37,467 nucleotides of DNA from Thermoflexus hugenholtzii JAD2. Lineage in GTDB: Bacteria; Chloroflexota; Anaerolineae; Thermoflexales; Thermoflexaceae. Position 1 is the first letter of the stretch. The number at the start of each line of letters is the position of its first letter. The stretch spans positions 1 through 37,467 of the forward strand of contig NZ_FYEK01000061.1 of assembly GCF_900187885.1 (NCBI RefSeq), given 5' to 3'. Shown here piece after piece: positions 10,859-34,420 of the stretch. Under the pieces are notes generated by a model that was not told the DNA's origin, ran no database searches, and worked only from the letters and a program-made list of their open reading frames with translations. The translations under genes and the position numbers were made by a program.

Positions 10859-11089
10859 ATGGGAGGTGGAAAGGATCTCCCGGCGCGGGCGGCGATGGGG
10901 TTGATCCGCCTGTATCAGCGGTGGATCTCTCCCTTCCTGCCTCCCAGCTGCCGGTTTTATCCGAGCTGCTCTCAATACACCTATGAGGCCATCGCTCGCT
11001 ACGGATTGCTCCGGGGAGGATGGCTGGGCCTCAAACGGATCGCCCGTTGCCATCCGCTTCATCCCGGCGGTTACGATCCGGTCCCATAG
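10859..11089 (+). CDS. yidD: Membrane protein insertion efficiency factor YidD
   Basis: A 76-residue protein of the YidD (DUF37, haemolytic-like) family. Residues [19 protein letters not shown], then [16 protein letters not shown] and [12 protein letters not shown] are the family signature, including the conserved Cys pair. It is thought to help YidC insert membrane proteins, sitting as an amphipathic protein at the inner face of the membrane. The ATG at 10859 has AAGGAGACGGA upstream. It follows rnpA directly, the standard order, but here a repeat block and a lipoprotein gene separate it from yidC. Confidence 0.95.
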
Positions 11090-11110
11090 GGGAGCAGGGG
11101 CGCCCGGGGG

Positions 11111-11342
11111 CGTCGAATGAATTCGACCGGATGAGGCCTTCGGCCAACGGTCGGCCTACGCCGACCGAGGAACGTCGCCCGCGTCGGTGGAGGCCGACGC
11201 CTGGCGCGGGGGGCGCCGAATGAATTCGGCCTCCTGGGGCCTTCGGCCGACGGTCGGCCTGCGCCGACCGAGGAACGTTGCTTACGTCGGCGGAGGCCGA
11301 CGCTCGGCGCGCAAGCGCCTGTAGAGGCCGATTTCAATCGGC
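11111..11342 (+). repeat. Modular hairpin repeat block, copy A (about two units of 103 bases)
   Basis: Two tandem units start at 11111 and 11214. In order each holds: a 7-base stem with GA loop (11112-11127 GTCGAAT/ATTCGAC; in unit 2 11215-11230 GCCGAAT/ATTCGGC, a compensating change); GGCC-TTC-GGCC (11135-11145); GGTCGGC-loop-GCCGACC with loops CTAC (11149-11166) and CTGC (11252-11269); a GTCGG-GGAG-CCGAC hairpin (11181-11200 with a T-G wobble, and 11285-11302). After unit 2 come GGCGC-GCAA-GCGCC (11306-11319), a GNRA-type tetraloop, and GCCGATT-TC-AATCGGC (11327-11342). The same set recurs, inverted, at 34144-34411. No protein-coding content. Confidence 0.9.
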
Positions 11343-11377: not shown

Positions 11378-11398
11378 CCCGGTCCTCCCAGGACCGGG
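11378..11398 (+). other. Perfect hairpin just before the beta-propeller lipoprotein gene
   Basis: CCCGGTCCT, loop CCC, AGGACCGGG: nine perfect base pairs followed by only three Ts. It could be a weak terminator of the yidD transcript or a structure in the leader of the next gene, whose ribosome site GGAGGTGG begins six bases downstream. The sequence does not decide between these. Confidence 0.45.
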
Positions 11399-11422
11399 TT
11401 TCCGGAGGTGGCACCGTTGCGG

Positions 11423-12538
11423 ATGTCATTGCGGAACATTCTGAAGGGATTGGGGATGCTGACGGGGGTGGTGCTGGCCGCCTGCAGCGGCGCCCCCCCG
11501 AACTGGCCGGGGATGCAGGTGGGGGATCAGACCCTTTACGTTGCGGATCTCGATCACGTGCTGGCAGTGGATCCGCAGTCCGGTCAGGAGCGCTGGCGGT
11601 TCCCTCCGAAGGATGGGAACGCGGGCGCCTGCGGCGGGGTTTACCATGCGGCCCCTGCGGTCGTGGCGGAGCGGGTCGTCATCGCCGCGGAGAACCCGGG
11701 CACGGGGGAGAGCCGCCTGTGCGGGCTGGATCGGGAGAGCGGAGCCCTGCAATGGGTCTATCCGCCGGCGGAGCAGCCGCCCCTGGGCCCCATCTTCGCC
11801 GGCCTGATCTCCGATGGGACGCAGGTCTTCGCAGGCACCGGAGATGGCTGGGTGATCGCCCTGGATCCGGAGACCGGACAACCGCGCTGGCGGACGCGCC
11901 TGCCCGAGGCCGGACGGGGGGCCGCGCGGATCTGGTCCACGCCCGTCCTCTCTGGAACGCTTCTGGTGGTGGGGACGATGGATCATCGGCTGCTGGCCCT
12001 GGATCGGGAGAGCGGGGTGCTCCGTTGGCCGGCGCCCTTCCAGGCCGGGGGGGCCATCGCGGGCGCCCTGACCCTGGACGGGGAGATCCTCTACGCAGGG
12101 GCCTTCGACGATCACCTCTACGCCGTGGATCTGTACAGCGGGCAGGAGCGCTGGCGCTTCCGGGCCAGCCATTGGGTGTGGGATGGGCCCGCAGTGGCGG
12201 GCGATCGCCTGATCGTCGGGGATATGAGCGGGAAGGTGTGGGCCCTGGATCGCCAGGGACGTCCCCTCTGGGCTCAGCCCTTCCAGGCCAACGGCCCGGT
12301 CCGCGCCCGCCCGCTGGTGGTCGAGGATCGCGTGTATGTGGCCGACGAGGCGGGATGGCTCCATTTGCTGAATCTGGCGGATGGGACGAAGGTGAAATCC
12401 GTGAACCTGGCGCCCGGGCGTCTCCTCACCTCGCCGGTGGCGGCGGCGGATCGAATCGTGGTGGCTCCCACCGGCGGTCCGTCCCGCGTGGTGGCTTTTC
12501 ACCCGGATCTCCGCGAGGCCTGGAAACTGGCTCGCTGA
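11423..12538 (+). CDS. PQQ-like beta-propeller lipoprotein
   Basis: About 371 residues. An N-terminal signal ends in a lipobox (VLAACSG), so the mature protein is anchored by lipid at Cys. The rest is a series of blades with repeating cores such as LDRESGALQWVYP, LDPETGQPRWRTR and VDLYSGQERWRFR, typical of PQQ-binding-like/BamB-type propellers; there is no enzyme signature. Its place right before yidC suggests a role in membrane protein or envelope assembly, but that is inference. ATG 11423 was chosen; TTG 11417 and GTG 11408 are in frame, the latter overlapping the ribosome site GGAGGTGG. Confidence 0.85.
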   Translation: MSLRNILKGLGMLTGVVLAACSGAPPNWPGMQVGDQTLYVADLDHVLAVDPQSGQERWRFPPKDGNAGACGGVYHAAPAVVAERVVIAAENPGTGESRLCGLDRESGALQWVYPPAEQPPLGPIFAGLISDGTQVFAGTGDGWVIALDPETGQPRWRTRLPEAGRGAARIWSTPVLSGTLLVVGTMDHRLLALDRESGVLRWPAPFQAGGAIAGALTLDGEILYAGAFDDHLYAVDLYSGQERWRFRASHWVWDGPAVAGDRLIVGDMSGKVWALDRQGRPLWAQPFQANGPVRARPLVVEDRVYVADEAGWLHLLNLADGTKVKSVNLAPGRLLTSPVAAADRIVVAPTGGPSRVVAFHPDLREAWKLAR

Positions 12539-34119: not shown

Positions 34120-34143
34120 CGGGCTCGCTCCGAAGGCCTTTGC

Positions 34144-34411
34144 GCCGATTGAAATCGGCCTCTTCAGGCGCTTCGCGCCGGGCGTCGGCCTGCGCCGACG
34201 CGAAGGGTGATTTTCCGGTCGGCGGAGGCCGACCGTTGGCCCAAGGCCTTTCGAGGTCGAATTCATTCGACGCGTTTTGACGCCGATTGAAATCGGCCTT
34301 CTAAGGCGCTGCGCGCCGGGCGTCGGTCTACGCCGACGCGAAGGATGCTTTCCCGGTCGGCGCAGGCCGACCGTTGGCCGGAGGCCTTTCGAAGGTCGAA
34401 TTCATTCGACC
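34144..34411 (-). repeat. Modular hairpin repeat block, copy B (two units of about 137 bases)
   Basis: Two tandem units, at about 34144-34272 and 34281-34411. Read on the minus strand, the direction of obg and nadD, each has: GTCGAAT-GA-ATTCGAC; GGTCGGC-loop-GCCGACC with loops CTCC (unit at 34216-34233) and CTGC; GCGTCGGC-loop-GCCGACGC with loops GCAG and GTAG (the last with a wobble pair); GGCGC-(GAA or GCA)-GCGCC; and GCCGATT-TC-AATCGGC. This is the same order as in copy A at 11111-11342. It fills the space between obg (stop 34421) and nadD (start 34119). Confidence 0.9.
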
Positions 34412-34420
34412 CCCATCGCC

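Follow-up and report, generated by a model that had tools for sequence, protein, structure and literature searches.

Is the run of short hairpins between yidD and a PQQ/BamB-like lipoprotein gene in the hot-spring bacterium Thermoflexus hugenholtzii JAD2 a structured RNA, or is it a piece of DNA that moves? A preliminary description of the window (the whole stretch of DNA analysed, 37,467 nucleotides of contig NZ_FYEK01000061.1) had favoured selection on RNA structure and named a mobile non-coding element as its second option. The hairpins form array A (Table 1), which lies within the rnpA-yidD-yidC cluster and contains a direct repeat of 2 x 103 nt with 85% identity. A hairpin search of the window found its stems to be perfect at the positions listed. 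Six kinds of hairpin in fixed order in two tandem units had been reported; this holds for unit 2, which has all of H1 to H6, but unit 1 lacks H6 and stops in H5, which is fused to the next H1. Other details of that description are present in the DNA, namely the compensatory change between the two perfect H1 stems, the H4 wobble and the GCAA loop of H5. The core GAATGAATTC occurs four times in the window compared with 0.05 expected, and array A folds much more stably than shuffled sequence, with z-scores about equal on the two strands (-6.1 on + and -6.9 on -). A further hairpin just 3' of array A, at 11378-11398, has its loop inverted in JAD2 relative to locus L112 of another Thermoflexus genome, G004 (CGGTCCTCCCAGGACCG versus CGGTCCTGGGAGGACCG), which may be a sign of loop flipping at palindromes.

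Table 1. Hairpin arrays of the window, their component hairpins and the genes next to array A
Feature	Position	Strand	Description
yidD	10859..11089	+	Pfam YidD; precedes array A, with 22 nt between its end and H1
Array A	11106..11342	+	Two tandem units, unit 1 truncated; between yidD and PQQ/BamB-like lipoprotein gene
H1 unit 1	11112-11127	+	GTCGAA(TGAA)TTCGAC
H2 unit 1	11135-11145	+	GGCC(TTC)GGCC
H3 unit 1	11148-11167	+	CGGTCGGC(CTAC)GCCGACCG
H4 unit 1	11181-11200	+	GCGTCGG(TGGAGG)CCGACGC; T.G wobble beside loop
H1 unit 2	11215-11230	+	GCCGAA(TGAA)TTCGGC; compensatory to unit 1 H1
H2 unit 2	11238-11248	+	GGCC(TTC)GGCC
H3 unit 2	11251-11270	+	CGGTCGGC(CTGC)GCCGACCG; left half-element ends here
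H4 unit 2	11285-11302	+	CGTCGGC(GGAG)GCCGACG; right half-element begins here
H5 unit 2	11306-11319	+	GGCGC(GCAA)GCGCC
H6 unit 2	11327-11342	+	GCCGAT(TTCA)ATCGGC; imperfect inverse of H1
PQQ/BamB-like lipoprotein gene	11417..12538	+	Pfam PQQ_2; downstream neighbour of array A
Array B	34139..34414	-	Two complete six-hairpin units; between GTP1/OBG-domain GTPase gene and nadD-like gene

The JAD2 genome comprises 3,216,964 bases in 78 contigs (PMC8129789). The element, a unit of ~130 nt with hairpins H1-H6 in fixed order, gave 80 matching pieces when searched against its own genome; merging left 40 loci of at least 100 bases, counted within the stretches fetched around copies, and 35 units could be aligned over ~134 positions. 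The 3' end of a gene often lies directly next to an element, many elements being no more than about 15 nt from a stop codon, and H1 itself contains the end of some genes, with the TGA of GAATGA apparently serving as the stop codon. Their orientation relative to the flanking genes is mixed. In co-directional gaps, 17 JAD2 copies have the same orientation and 8 the opposite (p = 0.11), and adding ten G001 and G008 regions gives 22:8 (p = 0.016), all counted on gene calls of a home-made ORF scorer that missed yidD. Random orientation of the copies had been named in advance as evidence against an RNA; the same-strand bias found is a weak tendency and not a rule, the orientation not being fixed. 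No description of this repeat was found in the open literature (subscription papers and ISfinder lay outside the search). Another dispersed repeat, roughly GAATTCGTGTATTCGTGTCTTGATTCGTGGA, lies 3' of several copies (right flanks, L060, L063, L068 and L077), and GTAG-type REP hairpins (GTAGGAGCGGCTTTAGCCGC) adjoin the elements in Thermoflexus (L058 at ~790-830).

The architecture extends well beyond JAD2. Covariance-model matches were obtained in 25 of 60 relatives, representing 17 of 49 genera, and in a few other Chloroflexota. The order of the hairpins and their loops are conserved on different stems, with TGAA - TTC/TGC - CTNC in H1-H3 and GNAG - GNA - TTCA in H4-H6, individual copies departing from this consensus as exceptions. 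H3 and H4 have 22-24 distinct 7-bp stems over 36-37 genomes, a tally of perfect stems that describes diversity and is no test of pairing; pairs 2, 3, 5 and 7 from the loop switch Watson-Crick type, while pairs 1, 4 and 6 are nearly fixed. Since the right half is in design the left half reverse-complemented, its three loops being the reverse complements of the left three, both strands carry one architecture. H1 and H6, compared by eye, are imperfect inverses (17 of 20 nt). In two genomes, G014 (L228-L245) and G021 (L248-L267), the six-hairpin set lies within larger dispersed repeats that have different inverted ends of their own (in G014, for example, AGAGCATGTCTGAAAATTAG ... CGAATTTTTAGACAGCCTCT), as if it were the cargo of DDE-type MITEs. 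Within the genus Thermoflexus, copy number ranges from 0-1 units (G005, G007) to at least 56 (among G000, G001, G004 and G008); G005 is 94% complete, so that incompleteness alone does not explain the unevenness.

Occupancy also differs between orthologous sites. At the site of array A, the element is missing from five other Thermoflexus genomes, and the site is degenerate in a sixth (isolate 629H.11); copies also lie in either orientation, so that the proposed role in an operon of yidD and the propeller gene finds no support. The site of array B is empty in G001, G005 and G008. Flanks of empty sites are strongly diverged from those of occupied sites, a site polymorphic between G008 and G001 being unalignable through the gap, and with flanks so diverged no target duplication was found in the Thermoflexus copies. 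JAD2 and G004, whose flanks are ~95-97% identical, have essentially all loci in common, and recent transposition was not seen in this comparison. Two JAD2 copies (L069) are missing from G004 and present in G008, indicating that loss also occurs. Median array length is 230 bases in JAD2 versus 627 in G004, the G004 array being longer at 29 of 34 loci, a gap that is probably due in part to collapse of repeats in the JAD2 draft assembly.

A Y1 transposase was not detected in JAD2, nor was a RAYT. In relatives, Y1/HUH tnpA genes are found amid or beside the elements in G003, G004 and G008, as well as in G051, G044 and G053 from other families. When 396 genomes of the class were searched for the G004 protein, 74 had a match, and 25 of the 30 best homologue loci carry diagnostic hairpins on both sides. 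In at least five of these 30, tnpA is nested between H3 and H4; at L273, L275, L278, L281 and L286, the closest hairpin is H3 on the left side and H4 on the right. At L216/L275 of G053, the spacer of a single element holds the gene (H1-H2-H3-tnpA-H4-H5-H6). At most tnpA loci, complete elements or arrays lie alongside the gene in place of this clean half-gene-half form. Hairpin density at tnpA loci is 6.8 per kb; in G004, 617 windows of 800 bases free of the element gave 0.08 per kb. When the H3 and H4 types only were counted, there were 93 in 24 kb of tnpA loci versus 4 in 494 kb of element-free DNA. Among Y1 genes of classes 1.1 and 2, those inspected (L215, L226, L227) had no H3/H4 hairpins in their flanks. 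Across genomes, element number tracks the presence of any Y1 gene only loosely, other classes of Y1 gene being common, and no close tnpA was found in several element-rich genomes (G001, G014, G052 and JAD2). More distant members have a four-hairpin form (H1-H3-H4-H6) or other iterated hairpins, and two homologues on Bacteroidota plasmids have, by eye, similar hairpins on both sides.

The TnpA protein scores 76 bits with the Y1_Tnp profile and 58.3 bits with the IS200/IS605 profile NF033573, passing its cut-off of 55. Its motifs (DHLH, WQ, YIQRQKEHH) match those of TnpA-Y1 subclass 1.2 (DH[x]H, WQ, YxxxQxxHH; PMC6006769), an assignment made from sequence motifs and not from a profile. Three further observations concern such genes. 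At L209 in G051, an open reading frame on the reverse strand (368-790) is a tnpA whose sequence nearly matches that of the Thermoflexus genes; G051 belongs to an unrelated family, and the HUH motif of this tnpA is deleted. The gene may have been transferred recently, with an enzyme that is probably inactive, or be a MAG binning artefact. Around other subclass 1.2 tnpA genes (L212, L213, L214 and L220-L225), the tandemly arrayed repeats also have several hairpins but are of quite different kinds, and each kind seems confined to a single clade. A RAYT-like gene of class 2 (YIEENP) is also present in G004 (L227), separate from these, and many TGAA/TTCA-type hairpins lie close to it.

The observed architecture, the conserved loops on changing stems, the linkage of tnpA to the hairpins, the presence or absence of copies at orthologous sites and the change in array length are best explained by a repeat that is probably a non-autonomous, tandem-amplified derivative of an IS200-like single-strand DNA transposon. 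The second option of the preliminary description is thus supported, mobility being what we infer for the element. The parent would have consisted of a single gene, encoding a Y1/HUH TnpA of subclass 1.2, between two three-hairpin ends, the left end comprising H1 (TGAA), H2 (TTC) and H3 (CTNC) and the right end its inverse, H4 (GNAG), H5 (GNA) and H6 (TTCA). Copies in the window would correspond to a left end plus a right end from which the gene has been lost. When the locus becomes single-stranded, for example as lagging-strand template, the ends would fold into hairpins, the TnpA tyrosine would cut and then rejoin the DNA, and copies would be moved in trans or multiplied into arrays. The action of TnpA on these particular hairpins and the single-strand route are predictions. 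JAD2 copies are presumably immobile now, because no tnpA was found. Since JAD2 has only one unit at the locus that is array-tnpA-array in G004, recombination between the arrays may have removed its source gene, or the assembly may have missed it. The embedding of the hairpin set within larger repeats in G014 and G021 counts against our reading and makes other mobilisers possible. Also against it are the near-complete sharing of loci between JAD2 and G004, the element-rich genomes with no close tnpA and the minority of tnpA loci that show the half-gene-half form.

A wider proposal, about which we are evenly divided with a slight lean to doubt, is that subclass 1.2 constitutes a distinct single-strand DNA system with its own cognate repeats. 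These would be two inverted hairpin sets that owe their identity to the loops (TGAA, CTNC, GNAG, TTCA) and not to a guide tetranucleotide; the enzyme would recognise the loops and a few positions in the stems, which would themselves drift through paired changes. If true, this would be a third recognition mode beside those of IS608 and RAYT, distributed across Chloroflexota and possibly Bacteroidota.

The closest competitor, which we consider unlikely, is a REPtron-like arrangement: instead of an insertion sequence that leaves deletion derivatives, a domesticated TnpA that does not move would have its cognate repeats dispersed, as RAYT/REP systems do. In this case too TnpA would have the repeats as its DNA substrates, and the two readings differ mainly in whether the gene-bearing form still moves. 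Domestication would suit the low copy number of tnpA, mostly one per genome, and the whole elements or arrays that flank the gene in G003, G004 and G008. However, no GT[AG]G tetranucleotide is present at the hairpin foot in the consensus of 35 units, the catalytic motif is Y---Q--HH and not Y---NP, and the REP_Tyr_transpos profile (NF047646) gives 25.4 bits, far below its cut-off of 80. The nesting of the gene between H3 and H4 in several genomes also argues against it, as does the near-identical tnpA in the unrelated G051, which suggests transfer of a module.

We return to RNA. A structured RNA made from one transcribed strand tolerates G.U pairs and not A.C pairs. Among 162 units, whose hairpins were re-extracted without covariance-model fitting, stem departures comprised 68 G.T and 76 A.C, with overall no strand preference; by genome the ratios were 22:31 in JAD2, 27:40 in G004 and 19:5 in the G001/G008 lineage, which leans to G.T. 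A G.T excess in model-fitted alignments (59:32 and 60:12) came partly from hit selection and from one outer H3 pair, and was set aside because the model-free re-extraction gave 27:40 and 19:5. Against the covariance model, a unit scores ~150 bits and its reverse complement still reaches ~100 bits. As to the covariation check first suggested, pairs did covary more than in shuffles: two-sided changes that keep pairing occurred at six pairs versus 2.3 expected. This covariation is real, but is explained as well by hairpin-level DNA processes, among them the flipping of loops and the replacement of entire stems from genus to genus, and kept, covarying pairing alone does not show RNA. Some copies do have flipped loops (H4 CTTC for GAAG at L087 and L088; H3 GCAG at L076), as would be expected from DNA-level template switching or inversion at palindromes.

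A processing, stability or regulatory RNA kept by selection on one transcribed strand could draw on this covariation, on the strong folding, on the G.T excess of the G001/G008 copies and on the same-strand tendency that includes their sites. It is nevertheless very improbable, given the overall G.T to A.C count, the fit of the reverse complement, the sister species without the element at the site, the absence of an Rfam match and the very uneven presence and copy number inside one genus. Because G.T and A.C are equally common and orientation is not fixed, the strand-specific selection on RNA structure that was originally put forward is not supported, and an RNA gene or riboswitch was rejected for strand symmetry, empty sites and the lack of an Rfam family. 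Just as improbable is that tnpA elements merely prefer pre-existing hairpin repeats that are an unrelated DDE-type MITE or host feature: the embedded sets of G014 and G021 would fit, but the association holds in more than 15 genera, and also in G053 with almost no other copies, and is not seen at the class 1.1 and class 2 flanks checked.

The transposon reading links an orphan group of HUH transposases to its likely DNA substrates, and the conserved loops on changing stems offer a directly testable recognition code. It also cautions that dispersed palindromic DNA can covary and fold strongly without being RNA. In the Anaerolineae the repeat is class-wide and very polymorphic, and short-read assemblies probably collapse such repeats.

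How does the element compare with known systems? IS200/IS605 elements have non-autonomous derivatives, e.g. PATEs. Shared with these are a Y1/HUH TnpA, subterminal hairpins and gene-less copies of two ends; three hairpins per end, symmetric ends and tandem arrays set the present element apart. Linkage of TnpA to the element is found in relatives and not in JAD2 itself, and hairpins at both ends with the gene between them occur at L216/L275, L273, L278, L281 and L286, an arrangement that is unusual in Thermoflexus. REP, BIME and REPIN sequences with their RAYT (TnpA_REP) are similar in being dispersed intergenic hairpins in inverted pairs, with the transposase gene flanked by its own repeats, but here there is no GTAG/GTGG foot, hairpins number 3+3 compared with one or two in REPs, and the transposase is not of class 2. 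CGTC- and GTAG-tagged REPs (PMC3733652) are small dispersed palindromes located mostly downstream of coding regions, as here, but their unpaired tag motif and single-stem units are not found; a CGTC-tagged REP is ruled out, since CGTC lies inside the H1/H4 stems. In the survey by Quentin et al. (2018, PMC6006769), subclass 1.2 enzymes come mainly from Cyanobacteria and Bacteroidetes and are listed with 'no' REP and generally no terminal structures. Our genes resemble them in the HUH motif DH[x]H, WQ, Y---Q--HH, a length of ~145 aa and low copy number, and differ in belonging to Chloroflexota and in being flanked by iterated hairpins.
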